Assembly (NCBI GenBank): GCA_018389105.1
Contig: JACATO010000652.1
Span: forward strand, 160,001-224,000
Direction of reading: 5' to 3'
DNA length: 64,000 bases
Origin: Nautilus pompilius
Lineage: Eukaryota > Mollusca > Cephalopoda > Nautilida > Nautilidae
A model generated the notes under the pieces. It searched no databases. It was not told the DNA's origin and saw only the letters and a program-made list of their open reading frames with translations. The translations under genes were made by a program, and so were the position numbers. Positions 2,736 to 64,000 of the stretch are shown here, in pieces. Each line of letters starts with the position of its first letter. Positions within the stretch are counted from its first letter, which is position 1.

Positions 2736-2809
2736 CTCTCTCTCTCTCTCTCTCTCCTCTCTCTCCATCTCTCTCTCTCTCCTCTCTCTCCATCTCTCTT
2801 TCTCTACAT

Positions 2810-2842
<33 letters not shown>

Positions 2843-3120
2843 CATCTCTCTCTCTCTCTATCTCTCCATTTCTCTCTCCATCTCTCTCTCTCTCTCTCCA
2901 TCTCTCTCTCTCTCCATCTCTCTTTCTCTACATCTCTCCATCTCTCTCTCTCTCTCTCTCTCCATCTCTCTCTCTCTCGCTCTCTCTCTCTCTCTCCATC
3001 TCTCTCTCTCTCTCTCCATCTCTCTTTCTCTACATCTCTCCATCTCTCTCTCTCTCTCCATCTCTCTCTCTTTCTCTCTCTCTCTCTCCATCTCTCTCTC
3101 TTTCTCTCTCTCTCTCTCCA

Positions 3121-3158
<38 letters not shown>

Positions 3159-3223
3159 CATTTCTCTCTCCATCTCTCTCTCTCTCTCCATCTCTCTCTC
3201 TCTCCATCTCTCTTTCTCTACAT

Positions 3224-3277
<54 letters not shown>
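2736..3277. repeat. CT-rich satellite with higher-order structure
   Basis: About 540 bp of almost pure (CT)n, interrupted by CATCTCT, TTTCT and TACAT variants. The variant block CTCTTTCTCTACATCTC recurs four times, at about 2796, 2919, 3021 and 3209. A longer segment near 2859-2945 is repeated almost exactly at 3151-3240, which points to internal segmental duplication as well as slippage. The long open frames seen here on both strands (Ser/Leu-rich on one, Arg/Glu-rich on the other) are by-products of a stop-free dinucleotide repeat. Confidence 0.95.
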
Positions 3278-10600: not shown

Positions 10601-11582
10601 TTAGGTTGTGAAGGTGTATGTAGATAAGTTATATATCATTTTGTAGCATGTGCTTTGGCATATATTATCAAAACCTTCCTTTTTAAAAATCATTAAATGG
10701 ATATTTGTTTCAGGGTTCTGAGTGAAGCATGGATAGAAAAGTATTTCATGCCATTTTGCTTCACGAGTTCAAACTGGGCCACAAAGTGAGCAAGGCAACT
10801 CGTAGCATTAAGCAGGCGTGGGTCGAGGACACAGCAAACGAGCACTCAGTACAACGATGGATTGCAAAGTTTCAATCAGATGTAAGCCTCAAAGATAAGG
10901 AATGTATCGAACGTCCTTCCAGCTGTGATGATAACCATCTGAAAGCCTCAGTTAAAGCTGATCCAAGAAAAACAGTACGAGAAATTGCTGAAGAGCTTGA
11001 CATAAGCACTGAAACTGTTTCTCAGTATCTTGACGCAATCAGCAAAATGGAAACGCTTGACAGCCTCACGAGTTGAATGAATAACAACAAAATCAATGAT
11101 TGGAGGTCTGCTCTTGGCTTGTCATAAGAAACAAAACCTGGCAAAACCATCACAGCTGAAAGGTACTATCATGAATTAAACGTTGTTCATCAGAAACTCT
11201 CCCAACAACAGCAGGCATTGGTGAATCGAAGAGGCCCAATCCTGCTCCGCGACAATGCTCATCCTCATGACTCTTCAGAAACTGAACACCTTAGGATACA
11301 AAGTTCTCTGTCACCAAGCCTATTAACCAGGCCTTTCTCCCACAGACCACCGCCTTCTCTAACACCTTGACTGCTTCCCTAACATTAAATCCTCCTCCAA
11401 CAGTTTATCAACTCCATAAATCCAGATTTTTTTTAAAATGGTATAAATGTGCTTGTACCTCGTTGGCAAAAATGTATTGATTACAATGGAACCGACTGAT
11501 TTATAAGCTTCACGTTCAGCAACGATATGAAGTCTCGTTGTTGTGGTAAAAAAAAACCGACAAAACCTTTGTAACGACCTAA
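10601..11582 (+). mobile_element. Mariner transposon, internally deleted
   Basis: The ends are TTAGGTTGTG at 10601 and, inverted, TTAGGTCGTT at 11582. A TA lies directly outside the left end; the right flank reads CA, so one side of the TA duplication has mutated. The copy is about 0.98 kb against roughly 1.3 kb for intact mariners, because the middle of the transposase gene is missing. The coding remnant resembles the mariner lineage that gave rise to the vertebrate SETMAR transposase domain. Confidence 0.8.
10729..11502 (+). pseudogene. Mariner transposase, broken
   Basis: The first 115 codons, from an ATG, stay open. They cover the N-terminal helix-turn-helix (EFKLGHKVSKATRSI, EHSVQRWIAKFQ) and the second HTH (TVREIAEELDISTETV). 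The frame then breaks at about 11074. Recognisable later pieces are FEVCSWLVIRNK-like, VNRRGPILLRDNAHPH (carrying the second catalytic Asp), GLSPTDH (third Asp) and VPRWQKCIDYNGTD close to the C-terminus. The segment that should hold the first catalytic Asp (CDEKW region in relatives) is deleted, so this protein could not catalyse transposition. The pieces lie in more than one frame. Confidence 0.85.
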
Positions 11583-22005: not shown

Positions 22006-23160
22006 TTACTGTACATAGCCTATTCCTATCGGTCTCTCCATGATGTTCATTTTAGGTACTGGAAAAGGTCTGATGGGTGGGAGACCCTTGTTATGACAGT
22101 CAAATCCGTATGACTGAATTTGAGTGGGCGTGGTCTGGTGACTCTGAGTGGCTGGAGGAGAGGAACCTATGGCCTTGTCACAAACGTCGCGCAGCTGCAG
22201 ACTGGGCTGCGGTGGCTGGGGGAGAGTCAGCGGCAGGGCTGGCTTCAGGTGGTTGATTGGCGATGGATACATGTTGAAAGTCTTCTCGCAGATGGAGGTT
22301 GTTGGGACTGACAGCGTGGTCTTTGGATGGTTCTGGATGTGGGGCGGGAGTGGCGAGGTCAGGGTGAACACCCTGTCGCACACGATGTCATGCGGTTGGA
22401 TCTGGCACTTCAGCGGGCTCTGGGCCGTCACCGGTGGTGCTGGCGGTGGTGAAGAGGCAGGAAATGCCTTGTCACACGTGTTGTTGATGCTACCCGGTTC
22501 CTGTGTTTTGACATGACTCAACATGTGCACTTTCAAGGCACCGGAGTTGGCAAAATTATTCCCACAACTTGGACATTTGAATGGCTTCGCTCCAGAGTGA
22601 GATTTCACATGTATTCTTCGAGCCCCAGGATTGGAAAAGTCCTTTCCACAAGTCTCACACTTGTAGGGCCGATCGCCAATGTGGATTTTCAAGTGAGTCT
22701 TCCATGCTCCAGAGTTAGCAAATCTCTTGTCACAAACCTCACAGCGGTAGGGTTTTTCACCAGTGTGGGTTCTGGAGTGCGTCTTCTGGGCCCCTGAATT
22801 AGCAAATTTTCTCCCACAGGTGTCACACTTAAAGGGCTTGTCTCCCGTGTGAGTCTTGGCATGAGTCTTCCATGCTCCTGAGTTAGCGAAGCACTTCCCA
22901 CAAACCTCACATTTAAATGGCTTCTCACCGGTATGGGTTCTTAAATGAGTTTTTAAATGACCTGAGCCAGACAATATTCGCCCGCAGATTTCACAGTCGA
23001 ACGGCATCTTAAGTCCAGTGGTGTTGTATGCAAACCTCGTTGGCGTGTCTGTCGCAGAGTTCTGAAATGCAGTGAAGGTGGTGAAGAAGTTGAACGGGCA
23101 CCAGTAACTGTTTTCAGACGTGCTGAAACACTGCACCGAAGACTGAGATTGTGTACTCAT
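22006..23160 (-). CDS. Six-finger C2H2 zinc-finger protein
   Basis: An intact 384-residue reading frame for a probable nuclear DNA-binding protein. The start is well supported because the codon just before the ATG is an in-frame TGA. Residues 1-53 form an N-terminal region without a domain I recognise (no KRAB, BTB or SCAN). Six C2H2 fingers follow with an exact 28-residue period: Cys/Cys/His/His at 56/59/72/76, 84/87/100/104, 112/115/128/132, 140/143/156/160, 168/171/184/188 and 196/199/212/216. Linkers are TGEKP, TGDKP or close variants. Fingers 2, 3, 4 and 6 share FANSGA at the start of the recognition helix; finger 5 has FSNPGA. Residues 220-384 are Pro/Ser/Thr-rich and contain short CDKAF-, CDRVF- and CEKTF-like relics of further fingers. 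All six main fingers keep their zinc ligands. The gene has no clear named orthologue that I recognise, so no symbol is given. The targets and role are unknown. Confidence 0.92.
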   Translation of the reverse strand: MSTQSQSSVQCFSTSENSYWCPFNFFTTFTAFQNSATDTPTRFAYNTTGLKMPFDCEICGRILSGSGHLKTHLRTHTGEKPFKCEVCGKCFANSGAWKTHAKTHTGDKPFKCDTCGRKFANSGAQKTHSRTHTGEKPYRCEVCDKRFANSGAWKTHLKIHIGDRPYKCETCGKDFSNPGARRIHVKSHSGAKPFKCPSCGNNFANSGALKVHMLSHVKTQEPGSINNTCDKAFPASSPPPAPPVTAQSPLKCQIQPHDIVCDRVFTLTSPLPPHIQNHPKTTLSVPTTSICEKTFNMYPSPINHLKPALPLTLPQPPQPSLQLRDVCDKAIGSSPPATQSHQTTPTQIQSYGFDCHNKGLPPIRPFPVPKMNIMERPIGIGYVQ

Positions 23161-27560: not shown

Positions 27561-27850
27561 AAACTGCACAGTCACGTATCACTGATCCGACAGCAAAAAT
27601 CAAATGCAGGGTGGTTTGTAAAGTCTTTTTCTTTAAACATCCATCTTTACCAGCATACAAAACCTTTTTATCTAATATGAGAAGTGCACTCCCAAAACCA
27701 CTTTCAGCAAAACCAGCATGAGAGATGAGAAATTCAGCCAACTACACAATTTAATTCTGAACACTGATGGCATAATTGTAATTTTTTCTTTTTTAATTTT
27801 GCACTGAGAAAGTCCAACGACTCTAACCTTTTGTGTGTGCGCATGTACAC

Positions 27851-30800
27851 TAGGGTGCATCAAACGCCCCATGATTTTTAAAGGTGTCTGTTTTTGACTT
27901 GACCCTAGATTAATTTTTTTCCATTATGTATAAAAATAACTCATGCAAAATTTCAGCAAAATTCACATTTGTTTATGTGGGCCACCTGACGTTTGGAAAT
28001 CTGAGCTGCAAAGCTGCCAAACTCGGCAGGTTCAGAGACCCCGATCTTTGAATATTTAAATTTTTTCATAGCCACTTGCCAGATATAAGCATTTTTTTTT
28101 AAAATAACACTTATGAAATCAATAAAAGGAAGTAAATAAACAACAAATTGCAATATTTTAGCCCAACTGACATGATTTTTTACCACTTTACCAACATTTT
28201 TATGCAATTTTCATCTATATTACATTAACATTACGTCAACTTACATGTATGGTACACTGTACATAAAGACAACATCGATGTTGTCAGATCTGCATAAATA
28301 ATCCATGTGGAAAAGTTCTGTTCTGCTTATTTACAATGTTCAGATTGTTTATTTAGCTGTCAGTCTTTGCCTTGCATTTTCGCAGATTTGGAAGAGACCG
28401 TCTGTCGTCTTCCACTACTTGAACATTTTGGTAGTGATCCTCACTTCTTGATGCAGAGAGAAAATCAGAACTTAACTTCACTCCCTGCTCAGCATAGTCA
28501 TTGATGACATTAAGTGCATCAACATGAGCTACGGAAGTCTGATAGGCAGCATACTCTGGCCATGCTTCAACAGGCTGTGCTAGGAACTCATGATTTATCT
28601 CAAGAATGTTCATTGTGAACCATGAGTCCCTCGATACTAAGTCACAAGTGTTGTAGATTCTGAGATGTCTGAAGGAAATTTTGGCTTTCCAAAGCCAGTT
28701 CCATAATGTTCTTCTGGAGTGACAAAGTCGCCATCTGACTTTGTGGCAAAGAGACTAAGAGCGAGTGCATGTCACTGTTCTGTTGGTATTTTGTAGTGAT
28801 GGTTTCTGCTGGGAGTTTTTTCATTTCAGACTCAAGTAAGCATATCTTTAAAGAGTACAACAGCTTAGCCATCCACCTAGCTTTGTGTAGTGCCTCAGAC
28901 TACTTGAATTTCACAGTCTGTTCAGCTCCAAGAAATACTAAGCACAATTCCACAAACTCGCAATAGTCATCCTGGTTGAAATTCAGCTCAGATTGCAGGA
29001 GCTTTAAAAAATCAGTTACCCATTGTTTTATCATTGCTTGGACTTCGATTCAACTGAGAAAGTACCTGATCATCACTATGTGCCAGCAAGTCAAAATTCT
29101 TGCAAAATCGCAAGAAAACTGTAATTTCTGGTGATGTTGACACTACAATTTGCAAGTCTTTGAAGACGTGTGTTAGGATTACTTCACCAATGTGATGTCT
29201 GCATATCAGACCATAACAATGCTCTTTGAAGACTTTCCTGTATTTTAATACATACAGCTGAAACATGTCCTGTATTAGCTGATGTAGTATCAAAGACCAT
29301 GTTTACAATGCTTTCTTGCAATTCCATGAAGTAAATTAACAGTCAATTGAGAAATTATATCACCAGATTTGCAATCTGTTCCTGGTTCATAAGATGGTAC
29401 GACTAACAATTTGATGTCCTGCTTAGTTCCTACAGCAACTGTTAATCGCTCCTGGTTTGCACACTTAGTTTCAAGAGATGGAAGAAATTTGGAGTCCCAA
29501 TGTAGAGATACTGGTTTAGAGGGAGTCCACTGTGCTTTGATGGAACTTGCTATACCTTCACCAACCTTTCTCCTTCATCTGTTAGCAGTAGAATATGACA
29601 TTGCCACTTTTGACACATCACCTCCAGATTCTTCAATTAAAGCAGCTGTAAAAGAAGCTTGCTGTGTGTTTGGCTGATGTTCATTCGTGTAGCTATGGAT
29701 ACAAGTTTTGTAGACTGAAGAATGATGTGGGGAATAAATGCTTCAGTTCCAGTGTGAACTGTGCAGTGATGACCTTGTGGCACTTGTGGATGCAAGCATC
29801 GTATTACTACTGGAAGGTGCAGTAACATCACCAAATGCAGATGCTGAAGAACTGCTGGATAAAGATCAGTTGCAGTAGCACACACATCAATATCACTTGT
29901 GTCTGTATCAGTTTCAGTTTCACTAAAGCTCTGGAAAGTAGTAGATGCCCTTAATATCTCTTAATTTTTCTCACGTCTCCTTGATTCTGCTTTAGCACGT
30001 TCTTCACTCCGCTGAATTCTTTGAGCCAACACCTTATCACTGGGTCCAAATGTAGCAGTACGGTCTGTTTTCATTGAATGCAGAAACTGCAAGTCTTCGG
30101 GATTTTTTATCACTTTCTCTGCATTAGCTGGCCACAGCTGAAAAGTTTGACCAAGTTTAGTTTCAACTTGTTCTAATTTAGAGAGGGTAGCTGGTGAAGA
30201 ACGATGATTAACGGGTATGCTTCTGAGTTTATCATCATCATCCACAAGCTTTATTATTTTTTCACATCCCTTGTGCTCTGTGATCATGGGAATTTTGGCT
30301 TTCCCATAGAATGGCACAACTTTAAGAAGCACAATTTTTGCACACTCCCACTTTGTTTGGTTCTTCGACGCACCCTTTTGAAGATGGTACATCATAGAGC
30401 GTAGTACTTGTCTACATGTTGGGAGGCATGAGCCATTTATTTGTGAATCATCATCAGTAATGCCTTTTCCAAGCCCAAATATGTTTTTTTACTTTACGTG
30501 TCATAGGAGTTGATTGTGGTGTATTAGTTGGTCTTGCTTAGAGTCTGACTCTGGAGTTGAAGGAGGTCCAGGTTCTGCTTTATCAGTCATGATTGAGATC
30601 AAGAAAAAATACCAATGTGCAAAAGGATGTAAGTATTATAAATTGAAACCTAAGTTAAAATATACCAATTTTTTCAAATATACCAAATCAAAAAAATGCC
30701 TACCAAAAACTTTGAAAATATACCAGTTGGCAACCCTGCCTTGATCATGGACTAATTCTAACAACATAATTATGCAATGGAAATTCCCACTTCTTTAGAT

Positions 30801-31422
30801 TGCATGTATGTTGTGCAATAGGCTCTAATTTTAGTAATGTTTGTATTGACCTTAAAGGCAATAGGAAATCCAAATTTCTAAAACTTTCTCCTTAGTATTT
30901 ATAAGACTGTGTGAAGATGTTTTGATGTGCTGTTAATGGGAAACACAAAACCAAAAAAGGAGAATTCAATTGTAACATTGTTTCATTTGAGTCTTATTAT
31001 TGTAAACGGCAAATTGTATGTTAAAATTATGTAGGAATGCAACAACAACGTCATATTATCGGACATCAGTTTGGCAGCAACACAGTATTCAATGATGTAC
31101 ATCTGGAATTTTAGTCATTTTTCTGTAAAAATATTGTTTTGAATGATTATATTCATTTCAATTAGGACTATCAATATCATATGTAGAAATCATAATTTGA
31201 CAATTCAGTAACTTTTAATTGACTTTTATGGTATGGATTTGCATATTACCTTTAAAGCCTGCCGAATTCAACAACCATGCAGGTCAAAATTTTCAAACAC
31301 ACAGTGGCCCTAAACCATCTTCAAATTACCTAAGATTTTACTGTTAGTGTTTTTCACTAATGGAAAACTTTTAGAGTAGGGACAGAAAAAAATCTGATCG
31401 AAGGAGCCTTTGATGCACCCTA
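27851..31422 (-). mobile_element. 3.57 kb DNA transposon with TIRs and an unnamed transposase-like family
   Basis: The left end reads TAGGGTGCATCAAACGCCCC and the right end, inverted, TAGGGTGCATCAAAGGCTCC: 17 of 20 positions agree. Both outermost bases can be read as a TA target duplication with GGGTGCATCAAA as the repeat proper. The flanks are CA/TG-rich and partly inverted, so a longer duplication cannot be excluded. The minus-strand gene between the ends spans about 2.2 kb. The combination of TIRs and a DDE-like gene makes this a cut-and-paste element. It is broken at several places. The superfamily is not certain. Confidence 0.7.
28353..30592 (-). pseudogene. Transposase-like gene of the 27851-31422 element, broken
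   Basis: From 5' to 3' on the minus strand: MTDKAEPGPPSTPESDSK near 30590; a charged N-terminal domain (30395-29961) with WECAKIVLLKVVPFYGKAKIP and a Lys/Arg-rich end; a central part with VSLHWDSKFLPSLE near 29490, MVFDTTSANTG near 29290 and CRHHIGEVILTHVF near 29180-29210; then a C-terminal region ending in NDYAEQGVKLSSDF near 28500. The two Asp blocks lie about 66 residues apart and the C..H block about 30 further on, a layout like the RNase-H fold of hAT enzymes; this similarity is my inference. I recall close relatives of these blocks as abundant unnamed proteins in arthropods, hydra and molluscs. Stops and frame changes separate the pieces, so the copy is dead or needs introns that I could not define. 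Confidence 0.65.
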
Positions 31423-31425
31423 ATG

Positions 31426-31431
<6 letters not shown>

Positions 31432-48129: not shown

Positions 48130-48966
48130 TTACTTTGTGGAACCGAGCTTCTTGAGAATGTGATTGCTATGGAACCCCTCACCACACACTGAACACTTGT
48201 AGGGATTAGGACCCAGGTGGCTTGTGGCATGTACAAGGAGTTTGTTTCTTTCCGTGAACACTCTCTTGCATTCACCACAGTGGTACGGCTTGACAGCCAG
48301 GTGGATCCTCCTGTGACTAGATAAGCCACTACTGCATGTGAACATCTTGTGGCAAGTATCACACTCAAATGGCTTCTCTCCAGTGTGCATTCGGAAATGT
48401 TTCTTGAGCTTAGAGAAAAATGCAAACCTTTTGTCGCACACACTGCACTTGTGCTGCTTTTCCACATGATGCACAGTCACAAGATGAGACATATGATATC
48501 TTTTATCAAAAAACATCTTGCCACAAAACTGACACTTAACACTTTTCACTCCAGTGTGCACCACATGGTGTACTTGCAAACTGCTGAAAGCAGTGAATGA
48601 CTTTCCGCAATAAACACATTTGTAAAGTCTTTCCTTGGCATGGATTCATAAATGCAGTTTCAAGATCATGTGCCGTGCAAAGGATTTCCCACATGTATCA
48701 CATCTGAACTCTTTCTCCTTATTTGTTAGCAAGCACTTTCCACACTGCTTGCATTTGAATAGTTTCTCCTTCACATGGATCTTCTCATGACTTCTCGAGT
48801 ACTGATGCTTTTTAAATCATTTCTGACACACCTCACATTGGAAGATACCCTCGTTTGTGTGGCTCTGCATTTGATGTTATCTCAGCTTTGCCATCTCCTC
48901 AAAGATTAATTCACAGTGCTCACATCTGAACTTTTTATTGCCACTGGACATCTCTACATGCAGAAA
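48130..48966 (-). pseudogene. C2H2 zinc-finger gene with about ten finger repeats, probably inactive
   Basis: On the minus strand a good 3' splice site (TTTATTGCAG) precedes 48966. An ATG at 48951 opens a frame that reads through about ten C2H2 repeats, all in one frame. Three in-frame stops interrupt it: TAA at 48879-48877, TGA at 48819-48817 (where CQKRF is expected) and TGA at 48648-48646 (where HLRIH is expected). One finger (near 48735) is cut short. The last finger (YKCSVCGEGFHSNHILKK) lacks its final histidines before the stop. The longest intact part (48645-48130) has four complete fingers after a first partial one and no ATG ahead of its first finger. The likely reading is a recently inactivated gene; rescue by unknown introns or RNA recoding is less likely. 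It is not an obvious copy of the finger gene at 22 kb, because the helices differ. Confidence 0.75.
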
Positions 48967-55362: not shown

Positions 55363-56640
55363 TCAGAAAACTTTCTCTTTGCTTGTTCTGTGGTCTTGAT
55401 ACTTTACAATAAACACTCCCATTATGCTGACATTTATAGTGAAGAAGAGAAGTCCAGCTAGCCAGATGTAGATGAATGTGTTCACTCCTTCAAACTCCAG
55501 ATAGTATGCTGGAACCAGCCAAAGTATCTGCCCTGCAAACCACAAGACAAGTATGCCCACTCCTTGAGCAGCACCCATATGAAGGTCAGGGATCACCATA
55601 GGAATGAGGCTCAGGTACCAGAGGAAGTACTGTGATGTGACTACTTTGTTGAAAGTCACAAAGGCAAATGTGTTGAGAAACCACGTGAAGCTGAGATCTT
55701 TATAAAACTTCAATGAAAAGCTTGCTATCAAGATTGCCTGAGGCAGGAATGTAAAAAGACTAATCCATCCAGAATAGGGCTTCTGATCTGTGAGATAGAG
55801 CATATAAAAGTAAACTGAAAAGTTGTGCCTAATGTCTTTCCGGGTTATGTGGTAGAGATAAGTTTCTTGTAAAAATGTCCAGCCATAAAAGTAAAAGAAG
55901 AACACAAGGAGGCACAAGAAGGTAAATCCAGAAATCAAAACAAATGTAACTCTTTTTAGGTTTGGTTTAACATTTTCTATAAACCTTTGAATAAAGCTCC
56001 TTGGAGCACTAACTGGCTCTCTCAAATTCAGATAAATAGAAACTGCATATGTTATGGGGTATATCTTCATGTGCACTGATAATGCATACATGACAGCAGC
56101 CATTTTTATTTTCTTTTTTAACAGCAGGAATAATGTCAACAAAACCAGACAGGACATAATGGATTCAGCATTGCCTCGACTTGAAACAGTCATCGGAAGT
56201 GGATTATACAACCATAAACTGGTGCATAGTTTTGCAGTTTTGCTAATACAACCTTTTGTTATCAGAATTCTATAAATCAACAGTGCACTGATAATATCAA
56301 ATATGATAAATACCATTTTCCCAAAATGAGGGGTGACAAGAATATTTGGTGTCAGTAACCATGCCAACAGTGGTGTGTATCGATAAGTAGCTCTCTGGTA
56401 TGGTGAGCAGCCTTTAACAACAAAATCAGCAGCATCAGTAAACACACTGTAGTCTATATCAGTGTATTTGACTTTCATGATGCTGTCCTGCCAAATTCCA
56501 TACCCCATCAGAGCAACACGAACTGTCAAGCCAATGAAACAGTGAAGCCAGATGGGACACTGAACTAAAACATGTTCAAGTTTTGTAAAAATGGCTTTAC
56601 TAATCATCTTGCTGTCTCTGTGTGTGTGCAGTAATGGCAT
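55363..56640 (-). CDS. PIGM: GPI mannosyltransferase 1 (PIG-M)
   Basis: Adds the first mannose, from dolichol-phosphate-mannose, to the glucosaminyl-phosphatidylinositol intermediate during GPI-anchor synthesis, on the lumenal side of the ER; in mammals it works with PIGX. The intact 425-residue frame matches the length of human PIGM (423). The glycosyltransferase family 50 signature KYTDIDYSVFTDAADFV starts at residue 58, with the DxD motif D61-I-D63 in the first lumenal loop. Also conserved are SPYQRATYRYTPLLAWLLTPN, NPLPMTVSSRGNAES, VHMKIYPITY, RKDIRHNFSVYFYMLY and FNKVVTSQYFLWY. About ten hydrophobic membrane segments are visible. The coding region is one exon, as in other animals. An in-frame TGA lies three codons before the ATG. 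Its start has a weak context, and Met12 is a possible alternative start. It is divergent to DCAF13. Confidence 0.97.
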   Translation of the reverse strand: MPLLHTHRDSKMISKAIFTKLEHVLVQCPIWLHCFIGLTVRVALMGYGIWQDSIMKVKYTDIDYSVFTDAADFVVKGCSPYQRATYRYTPLLAWLLTPNILVTPHFGKMVFIIFDIISALLIYRILITKGCISKTAKLCTSLWLYNPLPMTVSSRGNAESIMSCLVLLTLFLLLKKKIKMAAVMYALSVHMKIYPITYAVSIYLNLREPVSAPRSFIQRFIENVKPNLKRVTFVLISGFTFLCLLVFFFYFYGWTFLQETYLYHITRKDIRHNFSVYFYMLYLTDQKPYSGWISLFTFLPQAILIASFSLKFYKDLSFTWFLNTFAFVTFNKVVTSQYFLWYLSLIPMVIPDLHMGAAQGVGILVLWFAGQILWLVPAYYLEFEGVNTFIYIWLAGLLFFTINVSIMGVFIVKYQDHRTSKEKVF

Positions 56641-56650
56641 CCAAATTCAT
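56600..56650 (-). promoter_or_regulatory. Upstream ORF overlapping the PIGM start
   Basis: A 16-codon frame (MNLDAITAHTQRQQDD) starts 10 bases before the PIGM ATG in another frame and ends on a TAG that overlaps codons 12-13 of PIGM. Its ATG has A at -3, a better context than the PIGM ATG (T at -3). It could lower PIGM translation or direct initiation to Met12. Inferred from sequence only. Confidence 0.4.
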
Positions 56651-61284: not shown

Positions 61285-64000
61285 CAGTGGTTCTCAACGT
61301 GGGGCATACACCCCACAGGTGGGCAATTCGATTTTTAAGGGGGGCAATTGAGTACGAATGAAGAGGTCAGGGTCCAAATTTTCAATTTTTATTTTTTGGA
61401 TTTTCCACCAGGTAAAGTTTATGTTTCAGATGCTATTTTGAGTAAATATTTTTTTTTAGTGAAAAAGGTCTTTATTGTATAGTTATTACATAATCACTGT
61501 GCCATCGCTCTTCATGCACGTCACACAAAGTGCACGAGGTCATGGAAGAACCTTATTTATTGAATTTGATTTAGAAATACGATTCAAAGGGCTTTTGCTA
61601 AGTTACCATTATAATAACTGTTTCCTCCGTTTTCTCTCAAAGGAGAGCATTTCCATTTTCTGAAAATTCAGAGCTCGTAAACCAAGAAGTTGTTTTGGTG
61701 TTTTCACGCAAGGTAATTGATACATATTTCTTTGGTTGCTCGTGAATATATTTATTGTTTAGTATTATGATGATACGAGAAGATACATAAAGTGTCAGAG
61801 ATGAAAACTTAATAGTCCAAATGCTAATATAATACAACAGTCTTGCCATATTCATTGTGTATGTGTGTGCATATTTTTGTCAGACGATTATCATCAATAC
61901 ATTCGTGTGTGATACAAATTTCTCACACATTCGTAAAAATCTGGTGTACCGCACTGTTTGTCCTTATAAGCTGTATAAAACGAATCGGCATTGTTTTATT
62001 AATTATGTGTTAACTTCATTTCATTTTTGTGTTAACTTAAACATCTTAAATTCTGAAAGTGCATTTCACTTCTTAAGATTACTCATTTATTTCAGTCACA
62101 GCCCCTATGCATAAAATGAGTAGTGCAAGCAAAAAGAAAGTTCGTCAGTATTCAGAGGAATTTTTGAAATTTGGTTTCATACCCGCTGCTCATGATGAAC
62201 GGTCACCTTTCTGTCTCTTATGCCAACAATGCTTGACCAACGAATCAATGAAACGAGGTCGTCTTGAGGTGCATTTGAAGGCGAAACATAGTGTGTATGT
62301 AAATTCAGATTTGAATTACTTCAAATCTTTAAAGAATAAGTTTGAAAAAAGATCAACAATAAAGTCTCTGTTTACTGCACAAACTGTTACTATCAGTCGT
62401 ACTCTTGAGGCAAGTTATGAAATTTCTTTACTCATTGCTAAATCTGGAAAAAATCATACTATAGGGAAGGATTTAATTAAATCATCAATATCTGCATTTC
62501 TTAAAACAATTCTGGAAAAAGATGACAAAGATGTTAAAGCCATGCCACTCAGTAACGACACTGTTAGGAAAAGAATAGATGAAATGAGTGAAGATATTGA
62601 AACACAACTTGTTGAAAAGCTGAAATCAAGAAAATTCTCAGTACAAATGGATGAATCAACTGTGAGAGGCAGTGAGGCCTTATTGCTAACTTATGTAAGA
62701 TATATTGATAAAGGTGAATTTGTTGAAGAAATGTTATTCTGCAAATCTTTAGATACCACCACTACCGCCACTGATATATATAATAAACTATAATACTACT
62801 TAGATATCAATAATATACCAATGGAAAACATAACATCTTGTGCAACTGATGGTGCTCCTGTTATGATGGGCAAGAAAAATGGCTGCTTAAAAATGATGAA
62901 AGATGAGAATCCGGAGATGCTTCTTGTGCACTGTGTTATTCATAGAGAGAACTTAGTGTCGAAAAATATTTCTCCTGTACTTAATGAGGTACTGAAATCA
63001 GTTATAAAATCTATCAATGCTATCAAAACTAATGCCAAATGTGAGCGTCTTTTCGAGAAATTTTGTGAAGATAACAATTCAGACTATGTGAGACTTTTAC
63101 TTCACACTGAGGTAAGGTGGCTTTCGAAAGGGAATTGTTTGAAAAGATTCATGGAACTGTTTGATGATCTTAGTGGCTTTCTATGTGACAAGCCTGAAAT
63201 GAAGCACCTGCTAACCGTTGATGGAAAAGCGTTTTTGAGTTATTTAGCAGATATTTTCGAAAAACTGAATGTGTTGAATAAACAACTTCAAGGAACAAAT
63301 AAAACACTTGTTGATGCAAAGGCGAAGATATTTGGCTTTATTTCATTTATCGAGGTATGCCAAAAAAAAATATTTCTGACAAAAATTTTGACCAATTTCA
63401 TTGGCTAAAAAAATGAGAGCCGACTGAGGCTGCTGTGCTTGTCATTGTGGATCATCTGAAAATATTGGCCTCTGATTTTAAAGAAAGATTTTCTGATTTA
63501 AAACAGATTAATTTTCCATCGTGGGTGATGCAGCCAGTGCTTGTGGATTTATCTGATGTTTCAGTGCAGTACCAAGAAGAACTCTCGGAAATAAAAAATG
63601 ATGAGTCAGTTAAAACTTTATTCAACATAAAAGGAGCGATGGCATGGCATTGTGATGAGACAGAAACTAAATACCCAAATTCAACTAGCTTTGCAAGGAA
63701 ACTGTTGTTACCGTTTCCATCTTCATATATAGCTAAATGTGGCTTTAGCATTGTAAATGATTTGCTACTGAAGAAAAGAAATTCGTTGGATATCAGTAAA
63801 CGAGGAGATTTGAGACTAAAGCTGACTAAATTAGTGCCTAATATAAAATCTCTTTGCAGCAGGCATGAAGCACAAGGGTCTCACTAACTTTATTCCGCTT
63901 TTCTTGAGGTGTGCTCAAATGGCATTTTGCATTTGATAGGAACCTATACTTTATTGTACAGTAATTAAAATGATAAAATAAGCTTCCATTCAAATTAGTT
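61285..64000 (+). mobile_element. hAT transposon (Buster/Charlie-like) in DCAF13 intron 3
   Basis: Begins with CAGTGGTTCTCAACGTGGGG, the typical terminal inverted repeat of Charlie/Buster-type hAT elements. The matching right end (…GAGAACCACTG) is not seen before 64000, so the element runs past the window. The candidate left target duplication is GTGTAGAC (61277-61284). About 820 bp of leader precede the transposase gene, which lies in the same sense as DCAF13. Confidence 0.8.
62107..63887 (+). pseudogene. hAT transposase (ZBED/SCAND3-like), lightly broken
   Basis: Frames from 62107, 62821 and 63435 together cover a nearly complete hAT enzyme of about 590 codons. Residues 36-61 of the first frame form a BED-type zinc finger (C36, C39, H56, H61). 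Next comes QMDESTVRGSEALLLTYVRY with the first catalytic Asp. ATDGAPVMMGKKNG follows with the second, then HCVIHRENL (the C..H insertion motif) and LLHTEVRWLSKGNC. Near the end, KCGFSIVNDLLLKK is the C-terminal dimerisation region. One in-frame TAA lies at 62791-62793, and one frame change near 63360-63410 separates the second and third frames. With only two breaks this is a fairly young copy. It resembles the ancestors of domesticated ZBED5/SCAND3 genes. Confidence 0.88.

Follow-up and report, generated by a model that had tools for sequence, protein, structure and literature searches.

A decayed, probably hAT-related transposon in Nautilus pompilius with relatives whose transposases carry no recognised domain

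What kind of mobile element occupies positions 27851..31422 of the window, the whole 64-kb stretch of DNA analysed here (C628:160001-224000 of the host genome, which was searched over 727.6 Mb)? An earlier note on this DNA described a decayed gene with a hAT-like protein layout between inverted repeats and suggested either a poorly described transposon superfamily or a hAT offshoot with a changed target duplication. We read the element, with a probability of roughly 85%, as a dead cut-and-paste DNA transposon with a hAT-like way of working, and sequence comparisons point to a probable relationship with hAT. The unusual feature that is left is the lack of any recognised domain in the transposases of a large hAT-like group.

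The limits of the element are well defined. The 14-mer TAGGGTGCATCAAA begins at 27851 and its reverse complement ends at 31422, and a search of both strands of the 64-kb window with up to two mismatches found no third match to it. The left terminal inverted repeat (TAGGGTGCATCAAACGCCCC, 27851..27870, plus strand) and its reverse-complement match on the right (31403..31422, minus strand) are identical at all of the first 14 bases and at 17 of the first 20. Both element ends are reached within 3 bases by 27 of the 39 aligned host-genome copies, and because these boundaries are common to genomic copies we take 27851 and 31422 as the true element ends. The bounding inverted repeats of the earlier note are thus borne out, and the genome search and copy alignment that it proposed defined the ends and revealed 8-bp duplications.

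The element search returned at least 94 pieces, counting that of the window itself (best 40 of 125 candidates scored), the long pieces being 82-92% identical to the element. We read 50 further genomic places, 39 from this search and 11 from a 521-base core query; two of the latter share a contig, apparently through duplication. The 14-mers are exact at both ends in 12 of the 50 places, and an open frame spanning the whole gene was found in none of them, the longest element frames being 330 aa (L011) and 334 aa (L119 and L120). Nine copies have an internal deletion in common whose left breakpoint falls within element bases 605-612; in seven of the nine the right breakpoint, at 1848-1859, is shared too. 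These shared deletions would fit non-autonomous derivatives moved by transposase made elsewhere. A mariner-like insertion carrying a 305-aa frame splits one copy of the element, L047; the window itself holds an N-terminal fragment of a mariner-type transposase (10726-11073, plus strand; PF17906). No relatives outside the host genome were found in the viral_contigs or genome_contigs collections, where misses say little since both hold few eukaryotes. Among 55 loci read in viral_contigs, none has a C-x2-H block after an Asp block, and none of 76 stretches there that fit a pattern was confirmed.

Target-site duplications were counted over the window copy and the 39 copies from the element search, of which 28 keep both ends; the other 12 are truncated and were left out of the count. 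The expectation came from pairing the left flank of one copy with the right flank of another. An exact 8-bp duplication flanks 8 of the 28 sites (0.15 expected), and a duplication with at most one mismatch flanks 17 (0.89 expected). No comparable excess appears at repeat lengths of 2-7 or 9-12, where the strongest departures are those at length 4 (3 exact versus 0.56) and length 6 (2 versus 0.26). The other 11 sites, including that of the window copy, have two or more mismatches. Presumed copies of the duplication in the window, their length taken from other copies, are ATGTACAC on the left (27843..27850) and ATGCGCGC on the right (31423..31430); they agree at 5 of 8 positions, each of the three mismatches is a transition, and the sequence is a CA/CG-rich repeat. 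Five of the 11 core-query places retain both ends, one with an exact duplication, three within one mismatch and one with five mismatches. A TA duplication of the Tc1/mariner-like type and the TTAA duplicated by Kolobok were both rejected, because 8-bp repeats flank the copies. The superfamily argument drawn from the duplication therefore falls, since the duplication is 8 bp, as in hAT, and the same result removes the proposed change of target duplication in a hAT offshoot; all four intact copies described below have exact 8-bp repeats. Among the 17 near-exact sites, T occupies base 2 in 12 and A occupies base 7 in 15, in agreement with the T2/A7 preference stated for the hAT element Hermes (PMC8721813).

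Between the ends lies a broken transposase gene on the minus strand (28353..30590), with its ATG at 30590, its stop at 28353-28355, and frameshifts and stops in between. HWDSK, FDTTSANTG and CRHHIGEVIL, which the earlier note named as blocks of a decayed gene, were all located, in three different minus-strand frames of this one gene. All blocks given here lie on that strand. The N-terminal block LPTCRQVL..YHLQKG (30372..30428) has a counterpart in copy L116 that aligns with LPRKRDVL.. and LPSKEQVL.. of intact relatives. The first Asp block, SLHWDSKFLPS (29476..29508), corresponds to HWDGK in the intact relatives and lines up with its counterpart, the first Asp, in Tip-like hAT; the second, VFDTTSANTG (29268..29297), aligns in exact register with the second Asp in the same proteins. 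CRHHIGEVIL (29174..29203) falls one column off their C-x2-H. The RW block ALHKARWMAKLL (28858..28893), whose HHARWM is invariant in four intact sequences, has a correspondence with hAT that was read by eye. After it comes a deletion scar (28783..28794) at which, from copy alignments and the protein view, about 230 bp (about 75 aa) of other copies are missing; in those copies the alignment covers element bases 1-944 and resumes from 933, with ~220 extra bases in between. Further on, INDYAEQGVKLSS (28467..28505) corresponds to N-D-x-A-E-R-G-V in the intact relatives and, by eye, contains the proposed third catalytic residue.

A protein search with the first-Asp region recovered two related families with open frames, at 26-29% identity to the query. 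L124 and L125 encode 755 aa in elements of 2,542 bp and are 99.7% identical, and L126 and L127 encode 796 aa in elements of 2,885 bp and are 99.9% identical. The two proteins share 39% identity and have HWDGK, FDTTASNTG, CRHH, HHARWM and ND-x-AERGV in common, and fragments of the window's family align along both. Their termini are TAGGGTGGTCCA and TGGACCACCCTA. Inverted repeats of hAT elements are short and start with (T/C)AGGG, which the termini of the window's family and of these relatives fit. Exact 8-bp repeats flank all four intact copies: CCCCCCTC, which is simple sequence, GTGCAGGG, GTATAGAT and ATGTACAT. The tie between the hAT-like layout, the inverted repeats and an unnamed protein family, as the earlier note had drawn it, holds in these two families, which have the same blocks between TAGGGTG ends. 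Such intact, recent relatives suggest that the unnamed protein family of invertebrates consists of divergent transposases of a hAT-like kind.

The group is large. A search of the host genome with the 755-aa core gave at least 153 matches (best 150 of 407 candidates scored). At least five of these belong to the 755 type, at least three with a full frame, and at least 22 rows, at 46% identity, are of the 796 type, at least eight of them with frames of 796-801 aa; many of the remaining matches are diverged, mostly with stops. At the level of sequence, the near-identical pairs of open-frame copies indicate recent activity of part of the hAT-like group in this host. Another lineage has recurring 436-aa frames, present in 6 of its 10 rows among the matches listed. 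Its example L128 (G000:C2022:669700-671300) has VDGK, LDNTATNTG and, as its C-x2-H, CALH; its match to the family profile spans 268 columns (E 2.4e-11). L128 alone gave no profile match to hAT; the lineage may be a bridge to ordinary hAT.

The intact proteins were then compared with known domains. In Pfam, with a limit of E 10 and with HMMER filters that drop most matches above about 0.1 despite that limit, neither a BED domain nor the hAT C-terminal domain PF05699 was found in them, and the only matches were two chance-level coiled-coil ones in L126. Four ordinary hATs of the host genome, taken as a positive control, match PF05699 at E 1.4e-19 to 3.2e-10, and a BED-type zinc finger is present in one host-genome protein, L103; such fingers are common in hAT and not universal. 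The family proteins have no NCBIfam match, and the family profile has none in the PDB up to E 10. Motif strings of the proteins, variants included, are absent from the literature searched, and for the terminal strings none among the matches listed concerns this transposon by its title.

Profile comparison gave a link to hAT. A first profile was built from 16 copies belonging to the family of the window's element. Its alignment with Tip-like hAT spans 104 columns and places both Asp residue to residue, with a score of 23.5 at a probability of only 2%; the maximum among 200 shuffles is 22.0, so that none reaches the observed score. In the comparisons of this profile with Buster-like and with ZBED-like hAT, its score is equalled by 74 and by 160 of 200 shuffles. 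With the intact relatives added, the profile scores 42.4 over 61 columns against Tip-like hAT (best of 150 shuffles 22.8) and 45.3 over 149 columns against all hAT of the host genome (best of 150 shuffles 22.2), at hhalign probabilities of only 37-50%. The second Asp is in register with hAT and the C-x2-H motifs lie one column apart. Matched singly to the family profile, L106 and L104 score 30.0 and 27.8, and the controls (a mariner, PIG-M and a zinc-finger protein) 14.4-19.4; L103 and L105 do no better than these. In four comparisons of the C-terminal part with hAT C-termini, 10, 51, 109 and 94 of 150 shuffles reach the observed score, and because nothing there rises above shuffles, the equation of AERG with ERxFS of hAT stays a by-eye reading. 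Within the hAT-like layout described in the earlier note, it is the second-Asp region that matches hAT above all shuffles. A very divergent PF05699 domain could escape both Pfam and the direct C-terminal comparison.

Two sets of ordinary hATs in the host genome serve as the nearest points of reference. L104 and L106, which we take to be Tip-like, carry DUF4371 and Dimer_Tnp_hAT. The window's family resembles them in its second-Asp region and in the alignment of the first Asp, and differs in that the Tip-like proteins have a recognisable C-terminal domain and a C-x2-H out of register with its own. No TAGGG was found at the limits of the pairwise match between L106 and L107. L105 and L108-L110, presumably Buster-like, have termini (CAGGGTGGTC / CAGGGTGGTCGAAC) almost the same as those of the window's family, and by eye exact 8-bp repeats stand beside L105, L108 and L110, with 6 of 8 bases agreeing beside L109. 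Unlike the family, L105 has PF05699, and the family profile finds no match to Buster-like or ZBED-like hATs alone. Elsewhere in the window, broken hAT-like ORFs on the plus strand (62077-63884; MDEST..., TDGAP..., CVIHRENL) resemble L105 by eye. Two pieces of these ORFs gave only chance-level matches in Pfam and score 15.7 and 24.3 against the family profile, the latter over 15 columns.

How these observations place the element among known transposons can be read in several ways. The alternative that survives best, to which we give about an even chance, is that the element belongs to the published hATm and that only its host is new. As described, hATm is a proposed fourth hAT family of 28 members with 5'-TAGGGTG and CACCCTA-3' termini and duplications of 8 or 9 bp (PMC6004678); the window's family and both intact families share these ends together with 8-bp duplications. 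The same description reports PF05699 in the hATm-6 transposase (PMC6004678), unlike the intact proteins here, which do not match it. At the level of this description, termini and target duplication speak for membership in hATm and the domain result speaks against it.

A more tentative reading is that the proteins with HWD[GS]K, FDTTASNTG, CRHH and NDxAERG form a deep hAT branch apart from hATm, Ac, Buster and Tip, recently active in the host, in which the C-terminal catalytic and dimerisation part would have changed beyond recognition.

We consider it improbable that the element represents a separate, non-hAT superfamily that reached its 8-bp duplications and TAGGG ends independently. P elements, Merlin and some others also duplicate about 8 bp, and the lack of a Pfam hAT domain, the empty result of a PDB search with the profile (limit E 10), and a core of which only part is alignable, with its C-x2-H one column apart, would all suit such an origin. 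A new superfamily is nevertheless disfavoured by the profile match to hAT that exceeds every shuffle, the T2/A7 target preference, the 8-bp duplications of the intact relatives and the near-identical termini of the Buster-like hATs. An element duplicating TA only, as the earlier note took its ends to allow from the TA at both termini, has next to no likelihood, because that TA lies within the element's own end, the copies are bordered by 8-bp repeats and all four intact relatives agree.

For the hAT-like element that we favour, the transposase would bind the TAGGGTG ends, and the element would be cut out by a DDE active site whose putative catalytic residues are the Asp of HWD[GS]K, the Asp of FDTT and the Glu of NDxAERG. 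Insertion at staggered cuts would leave 8-bp duplications of sites like nTGTAYAT, and internally deleted copies would be moved in trans. A family with no Pfam or NCBIfam match is now tied to mobile ends and an 8-bp duplication, so that such genes can be annotated as transposases and not as host genes. Its near-identical open-frame relatives provide natural material for studying the working of a hAT-like transposase that has no recognisable hAT C-terminal domain.

Other features of the window lie apart from the element. A single open frame of 427 aa on the minus strand (55366-56646) encodes a PIG-M mannosyltransferase (PF05007), frames of C2H2 zinc-finger proteins occur on the same strand at 22009-23160 and 48133-48645, and a CT dinucleotide array of about 540 bp spans 2736-3277.
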